46,801 nt of DNA, from NCBI GenBank assembly GCA_944349635.1, contig CALVNH010000008.1:1-46801 (forward strand). Direction: 5' to 3'. The notes below the pieces were generated by a model, which saw nothing but the letters and a program-made list of their open reading frames with translations, was not told the origin of the DNA and ran no database searches. This stretch comes from an uncultured Clostridia bacterium. Its GTDB lineage: Bacteria; Bacillota; Clostridia; Christensenellales; CAG-917. Within the stretch, counting starts at the first letter, position 1; each line of letters starts with the position of its first letter. Shown one piece after another: positions 4,211 to 32,206 of the stretch. The position numbers and the translations under genes are program-made.

Positions 4211-4944
4211 GCGAGGGTAAGAGAAAATCAATGAAATGCGACAGCTTCATTTTCTACGCGTCGTTTTTCGAGGCTATAAAAGAGCTCCCCGACGAGAATC
4301 AGCTCGCGCTTTACAACGCGATTTTTGAGTACGGGCTCAACGGGGTTGAGCCTAATCTCACGGGGATAAACAAGACCGTGTTTACGCTTATTGCGCCGCA
4401 ACTCAAAGCCAACCGTGTGCGCTATGAAAACGGCTGTCTTGGCGGTGAATACGGGGCGCGTGGTGGTGCGCCAAAAGGCAATCAAAATGCGAGAAAACAA
4501 CCCCAAAACAACCCCACCCCGAAACAAACGGAAGAAAAAAACAACCGTGAAACAACCCCTAATCAACCCCAAAACAACCCGAAAACAACCCCTAATGAAA
4601 ATGAAAATGAAAATAATAGTTTGTTAAAAATAAATGAAATAAAAAATAAATTCAGGCGCGCGGGCGCGTATACGGGAGTGTTTGACGATGTGATAGATGA
4701 GGTTTTGACTTTTTTGGTTGAAGCCACGGAGTTGCCTCGTCCGCTCAAATTCAGCGGCGTTACATATACTGCCGAAGATTTTCGGCGAATTGCCGACACG
4801 ATGACCGTCGAGGATTTGTGCCGAATAGTCAACACGCTTTTGTTGCATAAGGACGATATAGTCGACGCTCGGTATTACGTTTTAGGTGTGATTGCGAATA
4901 TCGCGGGAGGGAAAAACAATGGCACATCAAATCAGCATCTTTGA
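4207..4944 (+). CDS. DUF6291-type phage replication-region protein
   Basis: 245 residues, overlapping the upstream stop by four bases. The N-terminus (SFIFYASFFEAIKELPDENQLALYNAIFEYGLNG) and the following GG-x-APKGNQNARKQ segment match proteins annotated DUF6291. These usually sit where a DnaD-like replication protein is found in related phages. Residues about 95-145 form a low-complexity Asn/Pro/Lys/Thr linker. The C-terminal domain (150-235, FDDVIDEVLTFL ... DARYYVLGVIANIAGG) resembles a small DnaD-type helical domain. The gene runs 26 bases into the methyltransferase gene. A role in replication initiation is inferred from position. Confidence 0.7.
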   Translation: MSEGKRKSMKCDSFIFYASFFEAIKELPDENQLALYNAIFEYGLNGVEPNLTGINKTVFTLIAPQLKANRVRYENGCLGGEYGARGGAPKGNQNARKQPQNNPTPKQTEEKNNRETTPNQPQNNPKTTPNENENENNSLLKINEIKNKFRRAGAYTGVFDDVIDEVLTFLVEATELPRPLKFSGVTYTAEDFRRIADTMTVEDLCRIVNTLLLHKDDIVDARYYVLGVIANIAGGKNNGTSNQHL

Positions 4945-7371: not shown

Positions 7372-7845
7372 ATGGACGATAGAGAGAAGATAATAAGCAT
7401 AATCCGACCGATTATTAAGGAACAATATCTTATGCGTTGCAAAGAACCCGACGGTTGTGATAATTGTTGGATTTCTTGCTCCGTAAACGAGAGGGCAAAA
7501 GCACTTGCCGATGCGCTCGTCGCCGCGAACATAGGCGATGTGACGGAGTACAAGAAAACAATCCGCGACCTTAACACCGATGTTGTAGCGTATCGAGCGT
7601 TAAGCAAAGCGGATACCCTCGAACAAATAATCGAGGGACAAAAAAGTTTAATCGACGAATACAAGCACCGCGCCGAGGTTGCGGATAGGGCATTAATGTA
7701 CGCCGTCAGCGAATACCGTTGCGATGAGTGTCCGTGTGCTGAATGCAACGCCGAAATACGAGGTTCGCAAGAGTGTATAGAACTCATTTGTGCGGAGCAC
7801 ATACAACAAGCCGAACGCGAAATCGCGGAGGAGAAAGGGGAATGA
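7372..7845 (+). CDS. Cysteine-rich coiled-coil phage protein
   Basis: 157 residues with AAGGAGG upstream. An N-terminal cluster (CKEPDGCDNCWISC, about residues 23-36) and a second cluster (CDECPCAECNAEIRGSQEC, about 116-134) flank a helical middle. Two separate CxxC-rich knuckles suggest zinc binding. The stop overlaps the next ATG. The family is not recognised and no activity is claimed. Confidence 0.65.
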   Translation: MDDREKIISIIRPIIKEQYLMRCKEPDGCDNCWISCSVNERAKALADALVAANIGDVTEYKKTIRDLNTDVVAYRALSKADTLEQIIEGQKSLIDEYKHRAEVADRALMYAVSEYRCDECPCAECNAEIRGSQECIELICAEHIQQAEREIAEEKGE

Positions 7846-8360
7846 CATTTGAAGAACTTAACGAAATGAATGACCCTTGTAAAGATTGCCCGCTTAATGA
7901 AACCGAGTATTGCAACCGCAGGGCGTGTATGGAAGATGAGCCGCCTTGTGCGTGGGCAGAGGGTGATATAGACGAGTGGATAGCAGGTGTAGAAGATACT
8001 AATAGAAGGCTTGATGAAGCCGAGAATAGACGGATAAGGGAACAAGAAATGAAAGCCGAAATAGCGCGAAAAAAGGAGGAAACTGAACGCAGAATGCGGC
8101 TGTTTTGTAAAGAAGAAATAGGTGCAGTAAAAGCATTGAAAAATCAATACGATAAATTAAAAAAACTTGTAGATTATGCCATCTGTTATGCGGAGGCAAC
8201 AAATTTTGCAAATGAAGCATTTGGCTATAAAGAAAGGATTAGTGTGAATCCTGAAATAAAGGTTGAATTGGAAGAACTAAAAGCAAGACTAATGGAAGCA
8301 CAACAAACATACGAAGAAAAACGAAAAGAATTTTATAGATTGGAGGAGGAGCGGAAATGA
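7842..8360 (+). CDS. Cysteine-rich N-terminus plus long coiled coil, phage protein
   Basis: 172 residues from the ATG at 7842 (ATGA overlap, AAAGGGG upstream). Residues 12-40 hold CKDC, CNRRAC and a further Cys, a knuckle-like cluster ending DEPPCAW. Residues about 55-105 and 130-172 are charged helix with heptad spacing, predicted coiled coil. The second half is visibly richer in A/T than the flanking genes. Function unknown. Confidence 0.65.
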   Translation: MTFEELNEMNDPCKDCPLNETEYCNRRACMEDEPPCAWAEGDIDEWIAGVEDTNRRLDEAENRRIREQEMKAEIARKKEETERRMRLFCKEEIGAVKALKNQYDKLKKLVDYAICYAEATNFANEAFGYKERISVNPEIKVELEELKARLMEAQQTYEEKRKEFYRLEEERK

Positions 8361-8821
8361 CAAAATGCGGAAAATCATTTTTGCCCGAGTGTGAATACTT
8401 TGCCACGAACGGTTGCGTGTCACCGTTTAATTGCCCGTATAAAGTAGAAAATGAAAGTATTACAACAGCAACAAGTACGCCGTGTAATCTTTATCCGCTC
8501 GAAACAGACAAAGACAAGGAAATCTCCCGCCTGACCGCCGAAGTCGCTGAACTCCGCGCGAGGTTGGAAAAGGCGGTGGAGTTGCCCGTTAAGGTGGGGG
8601 ATTGGGTATATTGCATTGATGATAATCGGATTATAGGTGGGGAGGTAAACGAAATACGTATTGAAGAATTTAATACCACAATAACATTTGTGCGATATGA
8701 TTTTGACGGTGAGTATATTGGCGAGTGGTATGTCAGTTTGGAAAATTATAACAAAACTTGGTTCACTACTCGCGCCGAAGCCGAAGCACGGCTCAAAGAG
8801 TTGCAGGGAGGGGAGAGATGA
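8357..8821 (+). CDS. Cysteine-rich phage protein with SH3-like C-terminus
   Basis: 154 residues, ATGA overlap with the previous gene and GGAGGAGGAG upstream. The N-terminus has Cys at 4, 12, 20 and 26 (C-x7-C-x7-C-x5-C), then a helix (ISRLTAEVAELRARLEKAVEL). The C-terminal domain (VKVGDWVYCIDDN ... GEVNEIRIEE ... WFTTRAEAEARLKEL) is a pattern frequent in Clostridia phage proteins. It is likely a small beta-barrel followed by the TRAEAE helix. No function is known. Confidence 0.65.
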   Translation: MTKCGKSFLPECEYFATNGCVSPFNCPYKVENESITTATSTPCNLYPLETDKDKEISRLTAEVAELRARLEKAVELPVKVGDWVYCIDDNRIIGGEVNEIRIEEFNTTITFVRYDFDGEYIGEWYVSLENYNKTWFTTRAEAEARLKELQGGER

Positions 8822-9183
8822 AAGACTACAAACGGATAACAATGCGAGAATTTGCAGGGGTTACGGGCGACGCAATTTATAATCGTCTTGCCGAACTCGA
8901 AGACAAAATTGAGAGCGGACAGTTTATAGAATTGCCCTATGCTCCCGACCGCATTGATGTTGGGTTTACACAAACGGTGCGGTCGATACGCGATGACTCG
9001 GTGGAACTCCGCACGCCTATCTATATCGCCTTGAAAAAGGATACTTTGGAAGAGGCAAGCGCAATGCTCAAAGAACTGGAACAGAACGCGGCAGAACGTG
9101 ACGACAACGCAGACGCAATTATTTATGGACTGCGTACAGTAATCGGCGCACTCAAAGCCGATAAAAATTCCGACGAGAGGTAG
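8818..9183 (+). CDS. Hypothetical phage protein
   Basis: 121 residues from ATG 8818, overlapping the upstream TGA; GGGAGGGGAGAG is the binding site. The N-terminus (DYKRITMREFAG ... IYNRLAELEDKIESG) resembles phage proteins that open with a short helix and a LAELEDKIE segment. The C-terminus is helical and charged. It lies just before the late regulator. No family is assigned. Confidence 0.6.
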   Translation: MKDYKRITMREFAGVTGDAIYNRLAELEDKIESGQFIELPYAPDRIDVGFTQTVRSIRDDSVELRTPIYIALKKDTLEEASAMLKELEQNAAERDDNADAIIYGLRTVIGALKADKNSDER

Positions 9184-15008: not shown

Positions 15009-16577
15009 ATGCCTATCAACAACCCCGTTGCCACTTACGGCAACATCGAAGGGCTCATCAAAAACGTACTGATGGGCTCCGGAGCAACCCAGCAAGACCC
15101 CAACGGTCGGTATTATGTTGACGGTCAGGCGATTAATGTCGAGATGTCCAGAGCAATCGCCGAGGCGATATATCTCGAAGAGCTGTTCCAGCCCGGCGTA
15201 AACTGCACCGCCGAATACACGACCGACACCTCCGGTGCAGGCGCGGTGCGTATCCTGCTCGACACGCTGTTCCGTCCCTCGTCCCGCACGCTGTCTTACG
15301 GCGGCAGGAAAGGCACGCCTGGCAACAGCGGCGTGTTTGACGCAAATCCGCCCGTGATGCCCACTACGGATGAAATCCTGCTGTATCTCAATCAGGTCAA
15401 CACGCAGGACATCATCTTCGCGGACCTTGCGAAAGAGTACATTCCGCTCAACATTATGACTTCGAAAATCAAGGGATACGGTCAGTCTGTCGCACAGGAC
15501 AGAACGGCGTCCACCCTTGCGGAAGTCATCGGCAACTGCATTTACCGCGCGCTCAACGACGGTCAGAACCTCGTCAGCGGTTTCGACGGCACGCAGGAAA
15601 ACGCCTACGCAAACCTCATTTCCCAGCTCAATGCGCTGTTCACCAACGGCGACCCCGTTACGGGCGCGATGCAGTTCCCCGTCGAGGGCAGAGTGATATT
15701 CCTGCGTCCCTCCGGCTACAACATCTTCAATCGCAACAGCGGCGTCATCCTGAACGGCTCGAACCTCGCGCAGGAAATGCTCCGCGACTTCGACCTGTCC
15801 AAGAATATGAGCGAGCGCAGGTACGTTTCTCAGTACTACATCGGCGAGTTCGGCAGACTGCACTTCTTCATCGTTCCCGACGCAATCTGGACGATGGCAG
15901 AAGCATACCTCGGTCTTGCGGCAGGCTCGCTCAAAGGCTTGCAGGGCGTTGCGTATTCCGCAAGCTCTCTCGCAGTCGGCAGAGCGGTTGACCTCGGTGT
16001 GAAGCTGCAAGACAGCAACCCGCCTTATCCGCGCGGCATAATGGCGCGACCCGTCAACCTGTGGGGTCACGAGATGATAAGAAAAGGCTATCTCATCGGC
16101 GACAGCACGTTCACCATCGACTACCTCGGCACCACGCTCAACATCCCGAACAACGCGAAGCTGTATCCCATCGCGCCCGCAGACCTCGGCACCGTTCTTT
16201 TCGGCGAGAACAAAGCGGCAAGCGTCGACGTTCCCGTGTACGGCGAGGACGGCACCGTCATCGGCTTCAAGCGCGTTGCAAAAGGTCAGTATCCTTCCGG
16301 GGACAACTGGCAGAGCGGTATGCCTCATGTGGCCGATGTCGTGGCTTCCGTGCCCGGCGGTAGCTACACCGGCGCGCAGTCCGTCACTCTCACCTCGGCG
16401 ACCAGCGGTGCGGACATCTACTACACCACGGACGGCACCACGCCCACGAAAGAGAGCAACAAGTACAGCAAGGCTGTGTCTGTCGCAAGCACCAGCACGC
16501 TGAAAGCAATCGCGGTGAAAGAGGGCTATACGCCTTCCGACGTCACCACCGAAAGCTACACCATCACCGGCGGTTGA
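15009..16577 (+). CDS. Major capsid protein with C-terminal Ig-like domain
   Basis: 522 residues; AAGGAGGAAATG gives a strong binding site, fitting high expression. Residues 1-435 are the capsid fold, supported by position after the scaffold and by sequence typical of tailed-phage shells: an N-terminal arm, a helix EMSRAIAEAIYLEELF, and RVIFLRPSGYNIFNRNSG. Residues 441-520 form a separate beta domain, VPGGSYTGAQSVTLTS ... IYYTTDGTTPT ... STLKAIAVKEGY, the signature of the chitobiase/hexosaminidase C-terminal Ig-like family. That domain should decorate the capsid outside and may hold carbohydrates. A terminator follows. Confidence 0.9.
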   Translation: MPINNPVATYGNIEGLIKNVLMGSGATQQDPNGRYYVDGQAINVEMSRAIAEAIYLEELFQPGVNCTAEYTTDTSGAGAVRILLDTLFRPSSRTLSYGGRKGTPGNSGVFDANPPVMPTTDEILLYLNQVNTQDIIFADLAKEYIPLNIMTSKIKGYGQSVAQDRTASTLAEVIGNCIYRALNDGQNLVSGFDGTQENAYANLISQLNALFTNGDPVTGAMQFPVEGRVIFLRPSGYNIFNRNSGVILNGSNLAQEMLRDFDLSKNMSERRYVSQYYIGEFGRLHFFIVPDAIWTMAEAYLGLAAGSLKGLQGVAYSASSLAVGRAVDLGVKLQDSNPPYPRGIMARPVNLWGHEMIRKGYLIGDSTFTIDYLGTTLNIPNNAKLYPIAPADLGTVLFGENKAASVDVPVYGEDGTVIGFKRVAKGQYPSGDNWQSGMPHVADVVASVPGGSYTGAQSVTLTSATSGADIYYTTDGTTPTKESNKYSKAVSVASTSTLKAIAVKEGYTPSDVTTESYTITGG

Positions 16578-16591
16578 TGAGTAACCGCACA

Positions 16592-16616
16592 GGGCAGGGT
16601 TTCCCCTGCCCTTTTT
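16592..16616 (+). terminator. Intrinsic terminator after the major capsid gene
   Basis: Perfect 8-bp stem GGGCAGGG (16592-16599) and CCCTGCCC (16604-16611), 4-base loop, then TTTTT. It isolates the abundant capsid transcript. Confidence 0.92.
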
Positions 16617-16668
16617 GCCCTTTCGAGTATTGGCGGTGCAACTCCGCCGAAGGGCGCAAGGAGAGCAT

Positions 16669-17169
16669 ATGAAACCTTTTAACGACGAAATTATGACATA
16701 CGACCTGAACGAGCACAAATATTACCTCACATCGAACGGAGTGAACAAAGCCATCGGGGTAAATCTCGACCTCGCTTTGAACAGCGGATTGAGCGGCAAT
16801 CCGTTTGCGGTCAGAAACTTCCTCGAAAACGTCACGGAAACGGTGTACGAGTACATATACGAGGACAGCAGCTCCGAGGCGTATCTCGAATATCTGCTTG
16901 CGACATACGCGCCGCTCCGCGATGTAGTGCGAAGAATGCTGCTTGCGCAGGTTAAGTACGCCATTATGAACAACTTTGTGGACGAATTTTCGGGCGTCAA
17001 CATAGCAAAAGGCTCGGCAATGGACGGACGTGTGCTCCGTTCGGCGGTGCGCGTTGCGCCGCAGGTGGACAGGCTTTGCAGACAGAACGTGCCCGGGATG
17101 AACTTTTGCCTGAAAACGATAACGGAACTGCCGTTGCTTCCGTCGTGGCTTTACAGGCAGGGATATTGA
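16669..17169 (+). CDS. Putative head-tail connector/adaptor protein
   Basis: 166 residues; the ATG at 16669 follows AAGGAGAG. An N-terminal short strand pair (IMTYDLNEHKYYLTSNGVNKAIGVNL) precedes a helical bundle (NFLENVTETVYEYIYED ... LEYLLATYAPLRDVVRRMLLAQVKYAIMNN). The helical bundle plus position right after the capsid gene fit a gp6/gp15-type adaptor that docks on the portal. The terminator upstream implies read-through or a weak promoter. The call rests mainly on position. Confidence 0.65.
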   Translation: MKPFNDEIMTYDLNEHKYYLTSNGVNKAIGVNLDLALNSGLSGNPFAVRNFLENVTETVYEYIYEDSSSEAYLEYLLATYAPLRDVVRRMLLAQVKYAIMNNFVDEFSGVNIAKGSAMDGRVLRSAVRVAPQVDRLCRQNVPGMNFCLKTITELPLLPSWLYRQGY

Positions 17170-17179
17170 GGAGGAGAGT

Positions 17180-17551
17180 ATGGGGGTTGATATTTACGGA
17201 AAACTCACCAACAACTCGGCGGCTGTATTCCCCGCGAAATGGTATCCGACGCGCGGTGACCGTGAAAAGTATGTGGACGTCAGGGTGGAGCTTGTTGGCA
17301 CGATAGACCGCAGGACGGGCTATCCGATACAAAATCTGCGCGCCTCGACGAAAGGCACGGCGGTGCGGCTGGCACAGTCCCTGCCCGTTGAGGAAAAGCA
17401 GGAGATGTCCTTTCTCGGCTTCTGGTGGATTATTGACGAGGTACGCTACGACCTCAGCGCAGTCAATCCGCAGGCGGCTGCGTTCGGAGACCCGATGAAG
17501 AACGCGGTGGTGGAAGTCACGCTCATAGGCAGCGGACGGAAAGCGGAATAG
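17180..17551 (+). CDS. Putative head-closure/neck protein
   Basis: 123 residues, GGAGGAGAG upstream. Mostly beta strand (AVFPAKWYPTRGDREKYVDVRVELVGTIDRRTGYP ... MSFLGFWWIIDEVRYDLS ... NAVVEVTLIGS). A small beta-rich protein after the adaptor is where head-closure proteins lie in siphophages. No sequence family is recognised, so the role is positional. Confidence 0.5.
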   Translation: MGVDIYGKLTNNSAAVFPAKWYPTRGDREKYVDVRVELVGTIDRRTGYPIQNLRASTKGTAVRLAQSLPVEEKQEMSFLGFWWIIDEVRYDLSAVNPQAAAFGDPMKNAVVEVTLIGSGRKAE

Positions 17552-17560
17552 GAGCTGCTT

Positions 17561-18142
17561 ATGGACGTAGGGTTTCTTTTCGGGTGGGCGAAGGAGCAGG
17601 GTGTCAAAGTGCCGCAGAAGTCGGACGGAAGCGCAAACATAAACGAGTTGTTTGCGATGTACGACGAATGGAAAAAGAAAGGCGGAGAAAGTAAATCGGA
17701 AAGTGCAAGTGATAGTTCAGCCAATGACCAACAGAACAGTGCGGAAGAAACTCCCGAACCGCATAATGTAAGTGCATTATTAGGTGAGGAATTCAAAGGC
17801 GTAAAAGGACAAGATGCCGTCAACAAATTGCTCAAAGAAAAGCAAGGGCATGTTAAAGGCGCATTTCATCGCGAAGATATAGGGGATATAGACCTCATCT
17901 GGGGCGATGATACATGCGGTTTGCAACATATACTCAAACGTCGCGAAGAGCAAGGAATAAATGCGCAGGAATTTGTAAAAGACCTTGCGGAAGTGGTGGA
18001 GAAAGGCTCTTATCGTAAACAGAATAAGAGAGGAAATTACGAATTGCTTTACAACGGCAAAATGGCAATAGTTTCTCCCGAATTGCAAGGCAACAAAATG
18101 ACTTTTCTTGTAACGGCATTTAAGACAACAATAAAGAAATAA
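17561..18142 (+). CDS. Protein with PBECR-type (barnase/EndoU/ColicinE5-D/RelE-like) nuclease domain
   Basis: 193 residues. Residues 1-43 look like the surrounding phage genes in base composition. Residues 44-70 are a Ser/Asn/Glu-rich linker. From about residue 75 the DNA turns A/T-rich and encodes a compact domain: GHVKGAFHREDIGDIDLIWGDD (96-117), LQHILKRREEQG (121-132), FVKDLAEVVEKG and GNYELLYNGKMAIVSPE. This matches the phage-borne barnase-EndoU-colicin-RelE (PBECR) fold family, metal-free RNases found in polymorphic toxins and in phage head genes. His97/His103/His123 and basic residues could act in catalysis. It may ride in the virion or act as a moron toxin. No obvious immunity gene is adjacent. 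Confidence 0.72.
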   Translation: MDVGFLFGWAKEQGVKVPQKSDGSANINELFAMYDEWKKKGGESKSESASDSSANDQQNSAEETPEPHNVSALLGEEFKGVKGQDAVNKLLKEKQGHVKGAFHREDIGDIDLIWGDDTCGLQHILKRREEQGINAQEFVKDLAEVVEKGSYRKQNKRGNYELLYNGKMAIVSPELQGNKMTFLVTAFKTTIKK

Positions 18143-18167
18143 AGCGCCCCATTTACAGGAGCGCTTT
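18141..18167 (+). terminator. Weak terminator-like inverted repeat
   Basis: AAAGCGC (18141-18147) pairs with GCGCTTT (18161-18167) right at the stop of the nuclease gene. Only three T follow, so termination is likely to be partial. Confidence 0.4.
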
Positions 18168-18241
18168 GTGTAGCCTTTGGATGGACGCCGGTCTCAAAAG
18201 AGATGTCCCATCATTCGAAGACAGCGGTGGCGAGTTTTCTG

Positions 18242-18270
18242 TTGTCAAAGACCTTACACCTTTATTATAT
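18242..18270 (+). promoter_or_regulatory. Candidate sigma-70 promoter inside the structural operon
   Basis: TTGTCA (18242-18247), 17-base spacer, TTATAT (18265-18270). It lies in an A/T-rich 180-base gap after the nuclease gene and 55 bases before a small membrane-protein gene. Confidence 0.55.
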
Positions 18271-18325
18271 GCAAAACGCGCAAAAAGTCAAGCTGCTTAT
18301 GCAAAAAGCGTAGACGGAGGAGAAT

Positions 18326-18478
18326 ATGACAACAATAAACATCATCGGCGTGGTGATGCTCATCGGAAGCGTGCTGGGATACGGCGCGCTTTTTCTTTGG
18401 GTGCTCACGGCGGACAAACGCAAAGCGCGGAAGGAGGGGAAGCAATGGAACAATCGCAATTCATCGCGCTCACGATGA
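18326..18478 (+). CDS. 50-aa single-TM membrane protein
   Basis: ATG at 18326 with GGAGGAG at 18317. One hydrophobic segment (residues 5-28, INIIGVVMLIGSVLGYGALF) is followed by a strongly basic tail (DKRKARKEGKQ), giving a tail-inside orientation. It overlaps the next gene by 34 bases in another frame. Small one-TM proteins can be holins, exclusion proteins or toxins; nothing here decides. Its place between a nuclease-domain gene with its own promoter and a tail gene is unusual. Confidence 0.5.
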   Translation: MTTINIIGVVMLIGSVLGYGALFLWVLTADKRKARKEGKQWNNRNSSRSR

Positions 18479-18747
18479 ACGCATTTCAACTCTTCCGCAC
18501 CATAGTGCCGATAGAAACCGGCAACATGCGATACAACGCGACGAACTATATGAATATGGGCGGGTTGTCGTGTCAAATCAAGGTGGACGCAAACATCGCG
18601 CCCTATGCGGTGTACACAAACGCGCCGTGGCGTTCTCCGCGATGGCACGGAAAAAAGAACCCGAACGAAGGTTGGGTAGAGGGCGGAGTGGAACTCATCG
18701 CGATGTATCTGGCACAATCCCTCGGCGGACGGGTGATAAAGGAGTGA
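18445..18747 (+). CDS. HK97-gp10-like tail completion/minor structural protein
   Basis: 100 residues from the ATG at 18445, which follows AAGGAGGGG; the longer in-frame opening from 18166 would cross the promoter gap and is rejected. The sequence (FRTIVPIETGNMRYNATNYMNMGG ... VDANIAPYAVYTNAPW ... EGWVEGGVELIAMYLAQ) has the PIETGNLR-x-ATAPYAxxxE-like layout of HK97 gp10/tail completion proteins. These close the tail tube top or join head and tail. Position agrees. Confidence 0.68.
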   Translation: MEQSQFIALTMNAFQLFRTIVPIETGNMRYNATNYMNMGGLSCQIKVDANIAPYAVYTNAPWRSPRWHGKKNPNEGWVEGGVELIAMYLAQSLGGRVIKE

Positions 18748-18750
18748 AAT

Positions 18751-19629
18751 ATGATAAGCACGACACAGATAGCAAACGAAATCGAAAGCAGATTTAACGA
18801 GATAGCGGCGGGTGCGAACCTGCCGTTTGTCTTTCGGATATACGCCAACATCGGGGAGTACAAGGCGGCAGAGGAAGACCCGACAAGAAAGAAATTGCCC
18901 ACGCCTGTCGTGAACGGCGTACTCATTGCGTTTCCTGCGCAGATTGTCCCGTTGCAGGGGGTGAAGAGTTTCGCGATGCAACAACTGCTCACGGTGTACG
19001 CACCCGTGAAGCCGAACGCCGAAGTGAACGGCGTCGGCATAGAAGAGGTGATGACCGTTGTGAACGCGTTCGCGGAGAGCAGCGCAGGGCTTGCAGGGGC
19101 GATGTCAGACGGCGAGAACAACTATGCGTACGTGCTTGCACCTCAGCTCCCATCTGTGGGAAGTGAAGGGTGGGAACTCGGCTTTGCCGCTATCCCCGTG
19201 AGTGTGTCCCTTGCGTGGCAGTTCATCGAGGGCGGCGTCGTGGGGAACAACGTCAAAATCACGGTGGGCGGTCAGGAAGCCGTGCTCCTTGAAGGCGGAT
19301 TTTCCCGCACGCGCATAGCGGACACCAACCCACGCGAGGGGAGTGAAGAGATGACGACAGTCATCGGACAGCAGGGGCTGACGCTCCGTGTGCTCGTGCC
19401 GTACATCAGCGGCGGCGTGGGGCAGCAGCTCGTCACCGACACGCTCACGGGCGCATTGGACAAGACCTATGCCGTGACCTACTCGGACGGCGTGGCTTTC
19501 ACGGACAGCGCGCCTTTTGCGGCGAAGATGGTGGCGACAAACATTGCGTTCAGTTTCAACCCCGGCACGACGTGCTCGGTGGAAGCGACGTTCGTGCTTG
19601 CAGACGGGGAGGTGTACGGAAATGCCTGA
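18751..19629 (+). CDS. Tail protein, possible terminator-tube fusion
   Basis: 292 residues, three bases after the previous stop. Residues 1-155 (helix, IGEYKAAEEDPTRKKL, then repeated beta strands) resemble a tail terminator or minor tail protein. Residues 165-292 (NNVKITVGGQEAVLLEGGFSRTRIADTNP ... DGVAFTDSAPFAAKMVATNIAFSFNPGTTCSVEATFVLADG) read like a tail-tube-type beta barrel. A single gene covering both jobs would be unusual but fits the very compact tail region. Domain identity is inference from strand pattern and position. Confidence 0.5.
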   Translation: MISTTQIANEIESRFNEIAAGANLPFVFRIYANIGEYKAAEEDPTRKKLPTPVVNGVLIAFPAQIVPLQGVKSFAMQQLLTVYAPVKPNAEVNGVGIEEVMTVVNAFAESSAGLAGAMSDGENNYAYVLAPQLPSVGSEGWELGFAAIPVSVSLAWQFIEGGVVGNNVKITVGGQEAVLLEGGFSRTRIADTNPREGSEEMTTVIGQQGLTLRVLVPYISGGVGQQLVTDTLTGALDKTYAVTYSDGVAFTDSAPFAAKMVATNIAFSFNPGTTCSVEATFVLADGEVYGNA

Positions 19630-20149
19630 CGTATCGTACGAAATCATCATAAGGGAAGTGAGCGGCGGCGGAACAGGCAGCGGTGCGCCTTCGGGCGGAG
19701 GCGGCACTCCTGCGCCGTCTGACAGCGGGGGGAGCGGCAAAGGCACTCCGTCCAACACGGGGTGGCTCAACGACATCTACGGCGCGTACAAGACCATCAA
19801 GGGCTTTGCGCCAATCGCAGCGGCGACAAGCGTGGCGAAGAACATCTTTCAATGGCAGATAGGGCTCGTGGGAAGAAATATGGGCAACTCGCTCGTGCAG
19901 GAGAAGATAAACTACGGAATGCAGCTTGCGGGTCAGATAGGCTCGTCCGTGGGGATGTTCGGTCTGGGCGCGGCTCTCGGCAACCCGCTCATGAAGATAG
20001 CCGGCGTGACCAGCGGCATCAACACGCTTATCAACTACGCCCAGCAGAGAGAGCAGTTCAACTATGAGCGGAATATGGAGAACGTGTCCCGCGCTTTGCT
20101 GATGGAGCGAGCGGGTCCGTCTTTCAACAGAAGTAGGAACGATTTGTAG
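19622..20149 (+). CDS. Short Gly-rich, hydrophobic tail protein (tape-measure position)
   Basis: 175 residues from the ATG at 19622 (GGGGAGG upstream), overlapping the previous gene by eight bases. Residues 1-22 are a beta pair, 23-52 a Gly/Ser/Pro linker, and 55-150 alternate hydrophobic and glycine-rich helices (TIKGFAPIAAATSVAKNIF ... IGSSVGMFGLGAALGNPLMKIAGV). It occupies the slot of the tape-measure protein but is many times shorter. If it measures the tail, the tail must be very short; it may instead be a membrane-penetrating or ejection protein. Confidence 0.55.
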   Translation: MPDVSYEIIIREVSGGGTGSGAPSGGGGTPAPSDSGGSGKGTPSNTGWLNDIYGAYKTIKGFAPIAAATSVAKNIFQWQIGLVGRNMGNSLVQEKINYGMQLAGQIGSSVGMFGLGAALGNPLMKIAGVTSGINTLINYAQQREQFNYERNMENVSRALLMERAGPSFNRSRNDL

Positions 20150-20160
20150 GAGGAAAGGCT

Positions 20161-20448
20161 ATGTTCAGTTACAAGACAGAGATAATGGAAAACGGAGCGT
20201 GGACGGCTCTCAAAGGCTGGGTGATGCCGTTCTCGGACGGTGCGAGCCTTGACGAGGGATTGGACAGCGGCAAGCTCAATCTCTCAATGTGCGAGCGTAG
20301 GGACGCGCTCAGACCGTTCACGAGAGTGCGTATAAGCGTGTATGAAGGGGAGAGCGCAAGCGGCACGCCCGTGGAAATCATCGAGCGCGTGGTGATAAGC
20401 GACGTTGTAAAAATGCGCAGAGTTGGGACAGATAGCCTATGGGCATAA
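20161..20448 (+). CDS. N-terminal fragment of a split tail/baseplate protein
   Basis: 95 residues, TAGGAGGAAAG upstream. It starts as intact phage tail proteins do (MFSYKTEIMENGAWTALKGWVMPFSDGASLDEGLDSGKLNLSM) and stops abruptly after VVKMRRVGTDSLWA. In related proteins this position runs on into a DHNIxLIExTKxLE segment. That segment is found at the start of the gene at 22424. About 2 kb of A/T-rich cargo separates the halves. It may still work as a separate chain or be a remnant. Confidence 0.75.
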   Translation: MFSYKTEIMENGAWTALKGWVMPFSDGASLDEGLDSGKLNLSMCERRDALRPFTRVRISVYEGESASGTPVEIIERVVISDVVKMRRVGTDSLWA

Positions 20449-20455
20449 ATGCTTT

Positions 20456-20490
20456 ACATTTTAATGTGAAGAAGAGAATAATTTCACATT
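20456..20490 (+). promoter_or_regulatory. Overlapping palindromes, candidate operator
   Basis: ACATT-TT-AATGT (20456-20467) shares its right arm with a second palindrome, AATGTGAA (20463-20470) / TTCACATT (20483-20490). Three ACATT half-sites thus lie just upstream of a -35 box at 20495, a typical layout for a repressor or activator. Confidence 0.6.
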
Positions 20491-20494
20491 GTAA

Positions 20495-20523
20495 TTGACT
20501 TGGATGGACTGATGATTTAAAAT
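20495..20523 (+). promoter_or_regulatory. Sigma-70-type promoter of the protease gene
   Basis: TTGACT (20495-20500), 17-base spacer, TAAAAT (20518-20523), 38 bases before the protease ATG. The cargo therefore need not depend on phage late transcription. Confidence 0.7.
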
Positions 20524-20560
20524 CAAATGGCCAAAATAGTATAGAAAAGAGGGCGGTTAT

Positions 20561-21493
20561 ATGCCAAATTGGAGCGAGATATTGCAAGAGGTTCAGCGCA
20601 ATCCTTCTGGGGTTGACCAAATACGCAGAGGATATCTTAAGCGATTGTCTGATATCACCGGACGTAATACTATTGCGTACTATTCTGGTTTTCTACAGAA
20701 GGCTAACATCGATGCTTCAATATCTGATATTGATAAAAACGGCTTTATGACTGTGATAAACAAATTAGATAGAGACAAAGGGCTTGATATTATTTTACAT
20801 ACCCCTGGAGGTGATTTGGCGGCAACCGAATCAATTGTTGAATATTTGTATCAAATATTTGGGAATAATATAAGAGCCATAGTCCCTCAACTTGCAATGT
20901 CAGCAGGGACAATGATAGCATGCTCTTGTAAAAGTATTGTGTTGGGAAAACATTCAAGTATTGGACCTATAGACCCGCAATTTAGAGGATTGCCGGCATC
21001 AGGCGTTATAGAGGAATTTGAGATGGCAAAGCAAGAAATAGCAAACAATCCCTCTAGTATTCCTTTGTGGCAAGTTATAATAAGCAAATATCATCCTACT
21101 TTTTTAGGTGAGTGTGAGAAGGCAATAGAGTGGTCAAAAGAAATAGTAACCAATTGGTTGCAACGTAATATGTTGCGAAACGACAAATATAGAGCAAAAC
21201 ATGCAAAAAAGATAGTTGAATTATTAAGCGACCATAATGCAACAAAAACACACGCACGACATATAGGAGTAAATGATTGTATAAAATATGGATTAACTGT
21301 TGAGAAGTTAGAAGAAGATGCAAATTTTCAAGATGCGGTATTAAGTGTCCATCATGTTTATATGATAACATTTGCTATGACCAACGCAATTAAAATTATT
21401 GAAAATCAAAACAGCGTAGCTATGATTATAACTGCTAATACTCCGCAAATTCCGCAGCAAGTTATGATGCCTCAGCAAAGGATGCCTTTTTAA
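20561..21493 (+). CDS. Clp-fold serine protease (SDH/SppA-like), prophage cargo
   Basis: 310 residues, GAGGGCGG before the ATG. The Clp/crotonase protease fold is clear: DIILHTPGGDLAATESIVEYLY (76-97) forms the oxyanion side. AMSAGTMIA holds the probable nucleophile Ser114. LGKHSSIGPIDPQFRG holds His131 and Asp138. The order matches the serine dehydrogenase proteinase group related to SppA and ClpP. No signal peptide or membrane segment is seen, so it acts in the cytoplasm. The C-terminus ends in a Gln/Pro/Met-rich tail (IPQQVMMPQQRMPF). It is A/T-rich compared with flanking phage genes and has its own promoter. Substrate unknown. Confidence 0.85.
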   Translation: MPNWSEILQEVQRNPSGVDQIRRGYLKRLSDITGRNTIAYYSGFLQKANIDASISDIDKNGFMTVINKLDRDKGLDIILHTPGGDLAATESIVEYLYQIFGNNIRAIVPQLAMSAGTMIACSCKSIVLGKHSSIGPIDPQFRGLPASGVIEEFEMAKQEIANNPSSIPLWQVIISKYHPTFLGECEKAIEWSKEIVTNWLQRNMLRNDKYRAKHAKKIVELLSDHNATKTHARHIGVNDCIKYGLTVEKLEEDANFQDAVLSVHHVYMITFAMTNAIKIIENQNSVAMIITANTPQIPQQVMMPQQRMPF

Positions 21494-21529
21494 GCTGGCA
21501 GGAATATGTTAAAGTAGGGAGGATGAAAT

Positions 21530-21745
21530 ATGACAGAGCAAAATAAGAAGCGTAAAGAATATTCTGATACTCCTGCAATTAGTGATGAAATCCTTGATTT
21601 TTATAAACAATTGGGGATTGATATATCAGCAATTGATGGGACACAACAGTATTATGATACGCATACTCCATATAAAAAATGTGGAATAACCCAAAATGTT
21701 CCATTTACAATAGGGAATTCAACAACAGTTATTTTAGACCCCTAA
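21530..21745 (+). CDS. 71-aa hypothetical protein downstream of the protease
   Basis: ATG at 21530 with GGGAGG upstream, 36 bases after the protease stop, so probably co-transcribed. The product is hydrophilic, with a basic start (QNKKRKEY), an acidic helix (ISDEILDFYKQLGIDISAID) and a strand-rich end (ITQNVPFTIGNSTTVILDP). No family recognised. It could be a substrate, adaptor or inhibitor of the protease; this is only inferred from pairing. Confidence 0.6.
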   Translation: MTEQNKKRKEYSDTPAISDEILDFYKQLGIDISAIDGTQQYYDTHTPYKKCGITQNVPFTIGNSTTVILDP

Positions 21746-21772
21746 TGAGTTTTGGTATGGCATAGGGAAAAG

Positions 21773-21799
21773 AAAGGACGCTATTCGGCGTCCTTTTCC
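21773..21799. terminator. Bidirectional intrinsic terminator
   Basis: Perfect 9-bp stem AAAGGACGC (21773-21781) and GCGTCCTTT (21788-21796), loop of six, with T-rich flanks on both strands. It lies between the convergent 71-aa gene and the minus-strand membrane gene, whose stop is inside the stem. Confidence 0.88.
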
Positions 21800-22374
21800 T
21801 TTGTCAGCTCCGCGACCTGTCGTTCCAGTTCCGCTATGCGCTCGGACTTGGTAGGCTTGTGCTCGCGGGGAGAACGGTTCGCAATACGGGGTTGCAGCCG
21901 CGTAGTGTAAAGCCAAATAAATGCCATGAAGAGCAGACAAGCGTAAATAATCGCCATTATAAACACCCCTGCATTAGGAGGCACATCAGACTTTGCCCAT
22001 TCTGACACCATATAAATTGTGCCAAAGAATATTGCTGAAAACGGTATCAAGCTAGAAAGGAAATAAAAGGGATGCTTTTTTGCAAGTAATATAGCAATGA
22101 TTTGGTTAACCCACAAGATGAGATAAACGAATAATATCGCAAAAAGATAGAGTTGATACTCACTTAAACTCTCATTGGGAATGTCGTTGTTATCTGAAAT
22201 AAGAGAGCATAAGTTAACCAAAATCTTAAAAGCACTACTTTCAAACTGCTCATACCCAACCCAATATTCGTTTGGGGAAACGTAGGGGATAAAAAGCATT
22301 GCTAAAAACAACACGAGAAGCACTAATGAAATGTATAAAGAGCGTTTAGTAATTAACGTGCTAAGAGTGTTCAT
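21781..22374 (-). CDS. Four-TM membrane protein with C-terminal coiled coil, prophage cargo
   Basis: 197 residues. On the minus strand GGGAGG stands eight bases before the ATG (complement of 22372-22374), so this start is preferred over the GTG at 22383. Predicted membrane segments are about 13-32, 73-98, 103-125 and 136-158. The tail (SERIAELERQVAELTKEK, 177-194) is a short coiled coil. The TM part is A/T-rich, while the tail region is G/C-rich, suggesting a joined origin. It is the only minus-strand gene in the prophage section and converges on the protease genes. Membrane exclusion or sensing is possible; no family is known. Confidence 0.8.
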   Translation of the reverse strand: MNTLSTLITKRSLYISLVLLVLFLAMLFIPYVSPNEYWVGYEQFESSAFKILVNLCSLISDNNDIPNESLSEYQLYLFAILFVYLILWVNQIIAILLAKKHPFYFLSSLIPFSAIFFGTIYMVSEWAKSDVPPNAGVFIMAIIYACLLFMAFIWLYTTRLQPRIANRSPREHKPTKSERIAELERQVAELTKEKDAE

Positions 22375-22423
22375 AGGGTGCACCTCCCAAAAAATTTTAA
22401 CTTAAAAAAGGAGCAAAAGCAAT

Positions 22424-25135
22424 ATGAAAGCACTTTTTGACCACAACATTGAGTTGATTGAACTGACAAAACTACTTGAACGAGAAGTATGTGATACCAT
22501 GACTGTGACCAATTATCTTGGTCATGATTTTTCAAACGGACAATATTCACAGGTCTTACCGAGCACTGAAACAATTCATGATGTGAATATCGAATCGCAG
22601 GGGGAACTTACAACTCCACTATTTGGTCCGATATTATATTCAGGAACACCGGTTTCGGTTAGAGTGCCTATATATTACTTCTTTGGAAAAGTAGGTTTGC
22701 AGATTCAGAATCAATACTTTAATGCTCAAATTACTGTATTAGAGCCGGACGAGACTCAGCATATTTTCCCTGATAATACTCCTTATGCTCAATATGACGG
22801 AACAGAGTTTCAACCTAAAAACTATCCGAATATAACATTTGAGATAACCAAAACAGGACAATATAACTTCATTACAAAATACAGCTATATAGGGGGAGCG
22901 CAGATTAGTAATCCTGATATTATAGTTACATATTCGATAAATGTGCTGTCAAGCACTCCCAAATCAAAAGATTGGACGATAACCGACGTCGTCAACCGTA
23001 TCCTTTCCGCAGGGGTGACACGGCGTGTGGGTATCGACACACAGAAGTATGTTTTCGACGAAACGCAAGCGGCGAACTATGCGAACGTGAAAGCTCCGGA
23101 GTTCTTCTTCACGCGGGGGACGTTGTGGGACGCGCTGTCCACCGTGGGCGGGTTCATCCACGCCATACCGAGGCTTGTAGACCAGAACCGCGAGGACGGA
23201 CGGCTCACCGTGCGTTTTGACGAGCTGAACTCGGACGAAGAATATGATATGAGCAATCTGCCGTCCGTGCGCTACTACGACGAGCAGATTTCGGGGGAAG
23301 AGTATTGCGAGGAGATAGACAGCCCCGCGCAGAACTTGCTGAACACCACGGACAAAGCCACGGGTGCGGTGACAGAGCCGAGCAACGGCGGTTGGCGTGC
23401 GGTGAACTGCCCAGAAAGCGACTATGAGATTTCCGCCAATACGATGATATTCCCCACAGACCAGCCTTTTTATCAAGTCACGGGGCTTGAAGTCAAGTGG
23501 GGGCAGAATGGCACCGCGCTCAACGCGTTTCCATATCTTTACGAGGCGGCGGAATACAGGGGGCTGTCTGGGTATGAGGGAGAAACGTATCCCTATTCGA
23601 AGGCGTATGCGCTTTGCTATTCACAGGGCGGAAAAGAAATAACGGGCTTGAACTTTGTCATAGAGGACGCGGTAAGCAGCGCATATCAAAGCTATGCCAT
23701 TGTCAACATCCTTAAAGCCCTCGGCGTTGACATCAACAATGACGCGGACTTCGCGAACAATCTGTTCTATCGCATAACCTACATCCCGCAGTCAGAACTC
23801 CGCGTGACGCAGAAGAAGCCGTACCTCACGCACGTCGGCAAGGGCACGCTCATCTACAACCAGGGCGGCAACACCATCGAGAGCGAGTATTTCGGACAGA
23901 AGATGAAAGGCGCGATTGCGAGGATAGGGAACGTCATCCGGCGGCGGACGTTCATTTGCAACAAGTTTGTCAAAGTGCCGAAAATCGGACAGACCTATTC
24001 GCCCGACGGCGTGCCTGAGAAAATCTCGAATGTGGACTGCTCGTACGAGAAGTTGTACATCAAAGTCACGGTGACCAGTGTGCCGAACTTCAACCGTCTT
24101 GCGGAATACACGGGCGTGAACTCGAACTACCGCTTGTACGACATCTCCGAGAAGCAGAGCGTAGACCGTTTCGTGCATTATGAGGAGAGCTGCGTTTTGA
24201 GCAACAGCGCACTTGACACGGGAACGCCTATGATAACCGGCGGGAACGGGTTGAGCGCTTATATGTCAATGTTCACGACAGCGGCGGAAACAGACAATCC
24301 TTATAAAGTAACGGCGGCTTTGTTTAACAGCCGTGCCGGGAGAACGGAAGAAGACGCAGCAACGGGGGTGGAGAACAACCCGATAACTCTCGCCTGCGCG
24401 TCGTTCGGCTTCGGGACTTCGCTTGTGTTCTACGCCAACACGCAGGACAACTACGGGGCAGGGCGGCAGTCTTCGGACGATTATTGGCAGTCGAGCTCCA
24501 AAAAACGCACGAGCAAGCAGGTGCAATACAGCGACGGGCTCGGTAACCTTTCCACAATGGACGTGACGTTCGGGACAGCGTTTACGGCGAGCGACAGTCT
24601 GCCGTTCGATTACCCGCAGGGGAATGAAAATTCTCTCATTGCGTCACAGCGATTGCTGAACTCGGCAAGCAACCCGTTCTTCATCAGCAAGGACAGCAGG
24701 GAAGCGATACACTTCTCATATCAACTGCATCATCAGGCGGACACCTTTGACATCGTCATCGGCAACGGGCTTTCAAAATTCAATCCGCTCGTATCGGCAA
24801 AAAGGAAAGCCTTGCGCTTCATCTGGTTGACACAACGTCCTCTTGACTTAATCAATCCGAAGATATCCGCCTATTATCAAGACCCGAATTTCCCCACGGT
24901 GACCGCGGATGCCGACAGCTCAAAGCGCAGATTCTCAATCGGCGCTATGACCAACCCGACAGGGCGGACGGTATATGGCTGGGCTATAGTCTCAATGGGC
25001 GAGATAGGTGGCATAGACGATATTGTCGTCGGTCAAAATTATCCGAGCGGACTTGAAAACGGAGCGACAACAAAGCCCCTCTATTTCAACTTCGTAGACA
25101 ATTCAATCCTCGCCACCCTCGGTATGGCGGAATAG
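22424..25135 (+). CDS. Tail hub/baseplate protein, C-terminal part of a split gene
   Basis: 903 residues; AAAAAAGGAG precedes the ATG at 22424. Residues 4-36 (LFDHNIELIELTKLLEREVCDTMTVTNYLG) continue the motif broken off in the 95-residue upstream gene. Residues 1-183 are A/T-rich and beta-rich. From about 22975 the DNA returns to phage composition with DWTITDVVNRILSAGVTRR, a hub-type domain, then a long beta-rich structural part to the stop. The protein probably forms the tail tip/baseplate. The composition break marks recombination in which the cargo and the 5' end of this gene arrived together. Splitting of the N-terminal 90 residues may affect assembly. Confidence 0.78.
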   Translation: MKALFDHNIELIELTKLLEREVCDTMTVTNYLGHDFSNGQYSQVLPSTETIHDVNIESQGELTTPLFGPILYSGTPVSVRVPIYYFFGKVGLQIQNQYFNAQITVLEPDETQHIFPDNTPYAQYDGTEFQPKNYPNITFEITKTGQYNFITKYSYIGGAQISNPDIIVTYSINVLSSTPKSKDWTITDVVNRILSAGVTRRVGIDTQKYVFDETQAANYANVKAPEFFFTRGTLWDALSTVGGFIHAIPRLVDQNREDGRLTVRFDELNSDEEYDMSNLPSVRYYDEQISGEEYCEEIDSPAQNLLNTTDKATGAVTEPSNGGWRAVNCPESDYEISANTMIFPTDQPFYQVTGLEVKWGQNGTALNAFPYLYEAAEYRGLSGYEGETYPYSKAYALCYSQGGKEITGLNFVIEDAVSSAYQSYAIVNILKALGVDINNDADFANNLFYRITYIPQSELRVTQKKPYLTHVGKGTLIYNQGGNTIESEYFGQKMKGAIARIGNVIRRRTFICNKFVKVPKIGQTYSPDGVPEKISNVDCSYEKLYIKVTVTSVPNFNRLAEYTGVNSNYRLYDISEKQSVDRFVHYEESCVLSNSALDTGTPMITGGNGLSAYMSMFTTAAETDNPYKVTAALFNSRAGRTEEDAATGVENNPITLACASFGFGTSLVFYANTQDNYGAGRQSSDDYWQSSSKKRTSKQVQYSDGLGNLSTMDVTFGTAFTASDSLPFDYPQGNENSLIASQRLLNSASNPFFISKDSREAIHFSYQLHHQADTFDIVIGNGLSKFNPLVSAKRKALRFIWLTQRPLDLINPKISAYYQDPNFPTVTADADSSKRRFSIGAMTNPTGRTVYGWAIVSMGEIGGIDDIVVGQNYPSGLENGATTKPLYFNFVDNSILATLGMAE

Positions 25136-31844: not shown

Positions 31845-32206
31845 TGGTGGAGGTGCGGGGAGTCGAACCCCGGTCCAATCAACCGTTAGCGGTGCTTTCT
31901 ACATGCTTATCCTACGTTTGATTGTATCGCACTTCGGTACGTGGGCGAACCTCGGATTGACGAGCCCGTGAAACAGCAATCTTACCGGGCGATGGGATTG
32001 CGTTGTCTGTTTTTATGATGCCGCTTGGCCGGGGAACAGAAAACCCGACGGCGACACGCTGACTAAATTATGCAGCGAGGGCGAACTCCATAGAGGAGCT
32101 CTTTTGATTGCTTTTCGCGTTTAATTTTTATTTCCGATTTTAACGCAGACGAGCCTGCGGCATGCTTACCCCGCCTCAAACTGACTGTCGAAGCCGGTAC
32201 ACCCCC
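31845..32206 (-). ncRNA. ssrA: Transfer-messenger RNA (tmRNA); prophage attachment gene
   Basis: 362 bases on the minus strand. The 5' GGGGGUG pairs with 3' CACCUCC as acceptor stem, and CCA is encoded at 31845-31847. The T-arm has GGGGTTCGACTCCCC. The 5' section (CCGGCTTCGACAG) is the usual tmRNA D-arm analogue. The tag frame, near 32070-32120, reads AKSNQKSSSMEFALAA and then TAA, ending in the canonical ALAA degradation tail. tmRNA frees stalled ribosomes and tags the unfinished protein for proteolysis. Its 3' end abuts the prophage, a common integration site that leaves the gene intact. Confidence 0.95.

Follow-up and report, generated by a model that had tools for sequence, protein, structure and literature searches.

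A prophage tail-hub gene split by a cargo block that houses a recurring membrane-protein gene, a candidate for superinfection exclusion

Background

Does a virion gene that is interrupted by other genes still serve the phage, and what are the genes that it houses for? The question is raised by a prophage on contig C8 of the 1.35-Mb draft genome of an uncultured Clostridia bacterium; the whole stretch of 46,801 nucleotides that was analysed is called the window. In this prophage the start of a tail protein, 95 amino acids (aa) long, is separated from a 903-aa protein, the hub, by a block that encodes a serine protease, a 71-aa protein and, on the opposite strand, a protein with four predicted transmembrane (TM) segments (Table 1). 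A preliminary description had named these features, all of which were present where it placed them, and had read the block as cargo that split one tail gene. Comparison with relatives indicated that the two pieces belong to one gene and that a membrane-protein gene recurs at the split; this gene may exclude phages whose hub carries a matching domain.

Results and discussion

One hub gene in two reading frames

The 95-aa and 903-aa proteins were compared with relatives separately, never as a joined sequence. In four viral contigs (L049 to L052) both matched the same single open reading frame (ORF), of 997, 1090, 977 and 985 aa, and in 12 further relatives the profile matches to both parts fell within one ORF, so that the gene which the preliminary description took to be split is continuous in 16 relatives. 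The 95-aa piece was 39% identical to the L049 hub (expectation value, E, 2e-17) and 38% identical to that of L052 (E 3e-16); on L049 it aligned with residues 3-101, and the hub piece aligned from residue 100 on. Judged from these alignments, the two ORFs are parts of one tail-hub gene.

Seven full-length hubs (window, G026, G200, G323, G270, L072 and L083) began just before a shared restart motif, (Y/F)xxxIxLIExTKxLER, referred to as site 1, and the same restart was found in hub fragments of G027, a second locus of G200 (G200b), G355, G371, G409 and G265. Besides the window, separate N-terminal pieces were found in G026, G200, G323, G265, L072 and L083. The single ORF of 16 relatives and the restart motif common to the seven full-length hubs put the split beyond chance. 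Five hubs were cut later: those of L081, L082, L084 and L133 about 40 residues further on, after the same motif segment (J), and that of L078 later still, with a first piece of 336 aa. As the preliminary description had it, the second half keeps its own start and ribosome site; a Shine-Dalgarno match of 4-6 nt lay ahead of all 14 hub pieces checked (12 full-length, two fragments), a count that has no chance control.

In a tree of the hub core with 28 rows (16 intact, 7 + 5 split), the intact label needed six changes, at least five of them forced by the starred branches, and the window grouped with the intact L049 to L052 and the split G026 (100/98). Repeated origin, loss and exchange of the region are not distinguishable by this tree. 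Hub relatives were uncommon, found in 4 of 43 genomes from the family of the host and 23 of 396 from its order; a wider profile found them in 8 of 46 and 13 of 74 genomes of two other families. Named relatives point to gut Clostridia, including Christensenella and Gallimonas. The hub protein alone had no match among viral contigs, and a two-row alignment used as query found the relatives.

These counts leave out copies of L072 and L075 (L073 and L085), L080, in which the N and J parts were not detected, the f19 loci of G126, G245, G326 and G374, and distant or partial hubs (G229, G073, G123, G414, G425, G427, G454, G462, G433, G439, G157, G394, G015 and L136). Also outside the twelve split hubs stand G213, with a 145-aa N+J piece followed by an antisense two-TM gene and no recognised hub, and G265, with an N-terminal piece, cargo and a hub fragment. 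In L064, L065, L066 and L068 (G126, G326, G374 and G245, respectively) a short hub-like ORF precedes one or two antisense TM-coil genes, possibly marking a third cut point in mid-hub. In L121 (G270 contig 44), positions 8249-9101 hold an N-terminal piece and then a PBECR1 nuclease near the contig end, possibly a second split locus within the G270 genome.

Two other kinds of interruption were rejected. A self-splicing intron or intein did not fit: no intron reached a gathering score in Rfam, the two parts have their own stop and start, and an antisense gene lies between them. A programmed excision element did not fit either, as the three ORFs of the insert had no recombinase match and no direct repeats were found at the insert ends; the insert of G200, which is the membrane-protein gene alone, also counts against it.

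A membrane-protein gene recurs at the split

What recurs at the split loci is a membrane-protein gene and not the protease. All seven site-1 loci carried an antisense gene for a small membrane protein, its start facing the new start of the hub, and in G200 this gene was the whole insert. Three of the five later-cut loci had an antisense membrane-protein gene against the second hub piece. Near intact hubs such a gene was adjacent in 6 of 16 cases, just upstream in G313, G424 and L075 and just downstream in L049, L050 and L052; L135, also intact, had a sense gene upstream. For L051 and G337, whose contigs stop near the hub, absence is uninformative. Not counted were short antisense ORFs near the intact hubs of L050, L074, L076 and L135, which had two hydrophobic segments but lacked a charged tail.

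Two families were distinguished. Four hydrophobic segments were predicted in the proteins of the window, G026, G200, G323, G270 and others; this four-TM family comprised six of the seven site-1 genes (those five and L072) and those of the intact L049, L050 and L052. The seventh site-1 gene, that of L083, belonged to a two-TM family whose members (L083, L081, L082, L084, G313, G424, L075, L135 and G213) are kin to one another. In five of the seven site-1 proteins at least 35% of the C-terminal tail was charged or Gln; the G323 and G270 proteins lacked such a tail. A single family marking all splits was rejected, the four-TM hidden Markov model (HMM) scoring the two-TM proteins of L083, L081, L082, L084, G313, G424 and L075 weakly. 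The two may be a single, very old family; otherwise, distinct membrane genes were recruited to the same place.

Exchange of the variable domain and the membrane-protein gene

One close pair of relatives, L049 and L052, was 97.6% identical across 8.3 kb of head and tail DNA. In three long blocks identity dropped to about 50-65%: the slot ahead of the hub, the variable domain of the hub, and the far part of the membrane-protein gene with the cargo after the hub. Protein identity was 86% in the N-terminal part of the hub, 98% in the J segment, 33% in the variable domain and 99% in the core, and 55% for the membrane protein. Values of synonymous divergence (dS) were 0.24 for the N-terminal part, 0.11 for the J segment and 0.09 for the core of the hub, against 2.0 for the variable domain and 1.3 for the membrane-protein gene. 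The high dS of the variable domain and the membrane-protein gene indicates that both were replaced and are not fast-evolving. A search for more phages close to this pair yielded only the two contigs themselves and one other, shorter and with 75% capsid identity.

The split loci of G323 and G270 showed a similar distribution at greater distance, with 70% identity in the hub core, 36% in the variable domain and 56% in the membrane protein, whose ends were conserved and whose first outer loop was not. A stretch of 256 bp that spans the starts of the membrane-protein gene and the hub was 85% identical in this pair, and both of its neighbours diverged; the DNA over the two starts was 84-85% identical in G323/G270 and G355/G270. 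In one close and one moderate pair, these patterns are what a matched pair of genes would be expected to look like.

The preliminary description took the A+T-rich tract that runs into the first 183 or so codons of the hub as a trace of recombination. In all 7 split hubs and in 11 of the 12 intact ones the variable domain was A+T-richer than the core, so the A+T-rich hub start is mostly a general trait of the hypervariable domain and by itself no proof of import. What stands of the claim is that the contrast in the window, 17.5 points between domain and core, was the largest among the 19 hubs, and that exchange is shown in one pair.

Retention of the membrane-protein gene in host chromosomes

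A search with the four-TM family, from which the host copies come, gave a match in 28 of 396 genomes, several of them weak. Among six loci with a broken hub start the membrane-protein ORF was open in five (G027, G200b, G355, G371 and G409) and absent in one (G265). Ten further loci without a full hub hit were fetched. In six of these (G339, G029 contig 6, G030, G028, G165 and G374 contig 20) this ORF was the sole match to phage proteins of the window in the 12-14 kb read, stretches in which phage genes unlike those of the window could have been missed. The other four were L170 and L176, with phage genes, L177, with a 40-aa fragment of the membrane protein, and L178, with nothing above threshold. 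The ORFs stood in tandem in G029, G165 and G374. In G029 the gene and an N-terminal hub piece were kept at a transfer-messenger RNA (tmRNA) gene, which is the window prophage's own site. G027 and G028 had both host flanks in common at 85-89% identity, with different stretches bearing the membrane-protein gene between them. Such retention favours a benefit to the host from the membrane protein itself.

At positions 6694-8698 of L170 (G009), the membrane-protein gene and a set that by eye resembles HigBA-SecB stood at the place expected of the hub, and no hub was recognised.

The two-piece hub

The hub matched no family in Pfam or PHROGs, and a search of the PDB with the hub profile gave only two weak hits (E 0.56 and 0.89). 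An AlphaFold (AF2) model of the intact L049 hub had a mean per-residue confidence (pLDDT) of 72.7, falling to 60-70 around the cut, and a predicted template-modelling score (pTM) of 0.73. The best Foldseek matches of the model were a DT57C baseplate chain (E 4.4e-5) and a T5 tail-tip chain (E 3.9e-4), with a Neisseria tail protein in fourth place (E 0.019). Template-modelling scores were 0.08-0.21, and unrelated proteins were interspersed, so that only the general class of T5-like baseplate hubs and gp27-like tail proteins is supported; "hub" is the likely class of the protein.

In this model the first cut (about residues 92-101) maps to a predicted loop, residues 91-99, with strands 73-90 and 100-109 on either side. 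The second cut maps near a low-confidence stretch, 133-140, ahead of a variable beta domain at 139-267, and the core begins at a helix at 278. It is plausible from the model that two chains meeting across the loop would keep the hub domain. Between G323 and G270 the ratio of nonsynonymous to synonymous divergence (dN/dS) was 0.13 for the separate N-terminal piece, 0.10 for the hub and 0.18 for the membrane-protein gene, and the two-piece hub probably still works.

A possible exclusion system and its alternatives

These observations suggest a role in superinfection exclusion for the membrane protein, and the defence or exclusion function that the preliminary description had proposed is plausible. 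The block embedded in the hub gene would probably be expressed in the lysogen, in which the membrane protein would expose a variable outer loop on the cell surface and stop incoming phages with a matching hypervariable hub domain from getting their DNA into the cell. Placed against that domain, the gene would let lock and target be exchanged together. The protease and its 71-aa neighbour would form a cargo unit of their own, the protease perhaps acting against phages inside the cell, and in lytic growth the N-terminal piece and the hub piece would assemble into one working hub. The whole reading, a hub-linked exclusion gene and a cargo slot inside a structural gene whose product works in two pieces, is given a probability of about 0.5; the finding of two membrane-protein families lowered this from 0.55 to 0.50 and slightly raised the readings in which the block is ordinary cargo or the split a dead end. 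Somewhat less probable is the narrower idea that membrane protein and variable domain form a matched lock and key, each diversifying with the other. Every phage would then carry, within or next to its own hub gene, an exclusion gene specific to its hub type, with conserved DNA anchors allowing the two to be swapped as a unit and the split virion gene as the price of linkage.

Several observations weigh against this proposal. Joint exchange is shown in one close pair, in which a comparison of tail fibres was not possible, the cargo on both sides of the hub differs too, and shorter dips to 81-92% identity occur elsewhere; in the split pair G323/G270, dS is saturated (about 2.5). It is conservation alone that suggests assembly of a two-piece hub. 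L133 and L078, two of the five later-cut loci, have the membrane-protein gene in sense orientation, G265 is split yet lacks the gene, and the N-terminal piece of G270 lies on a different contig, possibly as part of a second prophage. The two-TM and four-TM families are joined by weak HMM scores, mainly through hydrophobic and coiled segments. The window membrane protein had no match at E 0.01 in Pfam, PHROGs or NCBIfam, nor at E 1 in PADLOC, the G027 copy had only a sub-threshold match to DUF6541, and the model of the protein was poor and helical (pLDDT 64, pTM 0.40). No exclusion phenotype is known for these proteins, and the promoter ahead of the gene reached P <=0.05 singly in only 9 of 24 cases (window copy, P 0.38). 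Finally, 9 of the 16 intact hubs had no membrane-protein gene of this kind nearby.

This last count is also what would be expected if the slot were a tolerated insertion site for ordinary moron cassettes and the membrane gene had no functional tie to the hub. The cargo is highly varied, similar cargo occurs elsewhere (for example, the PBECR1 nuclease gene upstream in the window; Table 1), and the membrane genes fall into two families with weak links. Such a reading nevertheless seems less likely, because the gene is found again and again at one position, and mostly in one orientation, with hubs cut at site 1, hubs cut later and intact hubs alike, and because it was exchanged along with the variable domain in L049/L052. 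That the split is a dead end, with the window and other split prophages defective and their pieces decaying, would account for the six loci in which only a hub fragment is left (G027, G355, G371, G409, the second G200 locus and G265). It is improbable given that seven site-1 and five later-cut hubs are long open frames with a ribosome-site match, in diverged phages and viral contigs, and that the split N-terminal piece has a dN/dS of 0.13, albeit with dS saturated.

The membrane protein might instead be the immunity partner of a neighbouring toxin or protease, genes of which kind it adjoins in the window, G026, G323, G270 and L072; this is made very improbable by its presence without cargo in G200, L083, L081 and L084, and by four-TM genes in host chromosomes without matched phage genes. 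The divergent arrangement, with start facing start in all seven site-1 loci, could also reflect antisense control, in which a divergent transcript or promoter silences the hub or the tail operon in the lysogen and the protein is incidental. The protein is apparently under purifying selection (dN/dS 0.18, dS 1.8), and its gene persists where no hub is recognised, which leaves this possibility with very little weight.

Comparison with known exclusion proteins

HK97 gp15 is a membrane protein from the tail region, and the P22 SieA gene is not known to be embedded in its target gene. Membrane exclusion proteins expressed by prophages are already known, P22 SieA, HK97 gp15 and Ltp among them in the parts of the sources available (PMC10883804, PMC13190303, PMC3952083). 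There gp15 is a prophage-encoded moron protein for superinfection exclusion that blocks DNA injection (PMC10883804, PMC13190303), described in those parts without a split structural gene or an exchange of hub domains. SieA is an inner-membrane protein with three predicted TM segments and three diverged types that targets the injection proteins of incoming phages, and two of its types are reported there without a difference in target specificity (PMC10883804). Both are likened to the window membrane protein by description. The Ltp protein of Streptococcus thermophilus phage TP-J34 differs in being a lipoprotein whose gene, in the portion of the source available, lies in the lysogeny module and not in the tail operon (PMC3952083). 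Nothing in Pfam, PHROGs, NCBIfam or PADLOC ties the window membrane protein to SieA, gp15 or Ltp.

The apparent novelty lies in where the gene sits, within a structural gene and next to a domain that varies along with it; a literature search whose reach left out most subscription papers turned up no exclusion gene that splits a hub gene. A virion gene is repeatedly seen divided into two ORFs, with a likely prophage defence gene lodged between them, which suggests physical linkage of an exclusion protein and the virion domain that it may recognise. Should the proposal be true, sequence would allow gut phages to be sorted into exclusion groups and the host-facing portion of the hub to be located, and the slot would offer candidates for anti-phage cargo to mine, among them proteases, nucleases and toxin-antitoxin sets.

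Cargo of the slot

The preliminary description grouped the protease, the 71-aa protein and the four-TM protein as one module. This grouping was not borne out: no protease-bearing viral locus among L002-L013 matched the window membrane protein, and the membrane-protein gene recurs without the protease. The protease resembles the SDH-type ClpP-like serine proteases, matching PF01972 (SDH_protease) across the core at 3.8e-21, with 75.8 bits against a gathering score of 31.3, and phrog_11747 at 4.9e-99; for the named SDH equivalog of NCBIfam it falls short, scoring 86 bits against a cut-off of 250. Ser114, in MSAGTM, was invariant in 13 of 13 aligned sequences and is presumably the nucleophile. 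A sequence search of the PDB with the protease gave no hits, and PADLOC matched none of the three cargo genes of the window.

Relatives of the protease occurred in phages of Porphyromonas, Shewanella and Gordonia and in viral contigs. In all 12 counted (L002-L007, L009-L011 and L137-L139, leaving out the near-copies L008 and L012 and the cut L013), an ORF of 58-112 aa lay <=80 nt upstream, a count with no chance control that suggests a two-gene unit. The 71-aa ORF matched no family in Pfam, PHROGs, NCBIfam or PADLOC. It was the best of the 363 window ORFs against an HMM of the small protease-neighbour genes, at a non-significant E of 0.12, so that its identity with the small partner seen beside other phage proteases was not established.

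Related phages carried other cargo at the same locus, as the preliminary description had led one to look for: PBECR1 nucleases in L072 and G270 contig 44, a papain-fold toxin in G265 (4.4e-7), an M78 peptidase in L082, a SocA/Panacea antitoxin in L078 and, by eye, a HigBA-like pair in L133, of which the 104-aa member had no Pfam match. Weaker assignments were a PBECR3-like protein in G323 (E 0.0015, below the Pfam cut-off), an aspartyl-protease-like protein in G270 (E 1.3e-4, just below the cut-off), with a similar one by eye in G371, and a protein with an HEHLH motif (by eye) beside an acidic protein in G026. Nothing was evident in G200, L083, L081 and L084.

The slot upstream of the intact L049 hub held a probable toxin-antitoxin pair, made up of an HTH_3 antitoxin-like protein (8.5e-11) and a toxin by eye, together with a SecB-like chaperone that matched PD-T4-9_C (3.6e-14). 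Two toxin-like genes of L049, at 4861-5508 and 7400-7984, had a near-identical start, KHPRDGDGKFTDKGGG, in slots that were 77-80% identical in DNA to those of L052; by their sequences they would be a shared leader domain on different payloads.

Layout and expression signals of the window

The bases between the hub pieces (1,975 in all) were 37.2% G+C and hub codons 1-184 were 36.4%; the values for the hub core and for the 2.5 kb upstream were 53.9% and 53.8%, respectively. Over the window, tmRNA alone attained a gathering score in Rfam, and the prophage adjoins this gene.

Table 1. Features of the split hub locus and its surroundings in the window
Feature	Position	Strand	Basis or remark
PBECR1-type nuclease gene	17561-18142		PF18809, 3e-13
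N-terminal tail-hub piece, 95 aa	20161-20448	+	C-terminal end ...RVGTDSLWA; match to first ~100 residues of intact hubs
Leader of protease cassette	20449-20560	+	promoter-like TTGACT-17-TAAAAT at 20495-20523; agreement with the consensus only; counts close to chance
SDH-type (ClpP-fold) serine protease, 310 aa	20561-21493	+	PF01972, phrog_11747, alignment
71-aa protein, possible small partner of protease	21530-21745	+	no family match
Terminator-like hairpin separating convergent units	21773-21796	-	9-pair stem
Divergent four-TM protein, recurring split-hub partner	ORF 21781-22383, likely start ATG 22374	-	four hydrophobic segments; charged C-terminal tail
Main hub piece, 903 aa	22424-25135	+	ribosome site AAAGGAG; N-terminus MKALFDHNIELIELTKLLERE
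Hypervariable A+T-rich hub domain, about residues 41-184	22544-22975	+	base composition; variability of equivalent domain in relatives
tmRNA gene	31845-32206		adjoins prophage

Of the expression signals in the preliminary description, the promoter and palindromes assigned to the block were present as sites, but their counts were near those of shuffled sequence: between 20380 and 22480 there were 11 promoter-like sites against 7.0 (standard deviation 2.3) and two terminators against 1.2, counts that are weak by themselves. The hairpin between the convergent units was called a terminator on the minus strand only; the T run on the plus strand is short, so that "bidirectional" is only plausible.

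The window membrane-protein gene had a promoter-like TTGCTT-17-TAAAAT 19 nt before its ATG. Over 24 four-TM and related genes, the best sigma-70-like upstream site had a mean score of 9.17, compared with 7.54 in shuffles; the -10 box ended 16-24 nt before the start used in 15 of the 24. By eye, the leaders of these genes in G026, G027, G029 and G030 had an inverted repeat between the -10 box and the start (AAAGCACCTC..GGGAGGTGCTTT in G027), not seen by eye in the window copy, which could hide the ribosome site in longer transcripts.

Upstream of the hub, the PBECR1-type nuclease gene lies in an A+T-rich dip amid head-tail joining genes and is a second cargo slot; a relative in G213 was 50% identical. 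Among the ORFs between the capsid and hub genes (16577-20149) there was no long tape-measure gene. A 175-aa Gly-rich, partly hydrophobic protein precedes the window hub, and its homologues precede the hub in many relatives.

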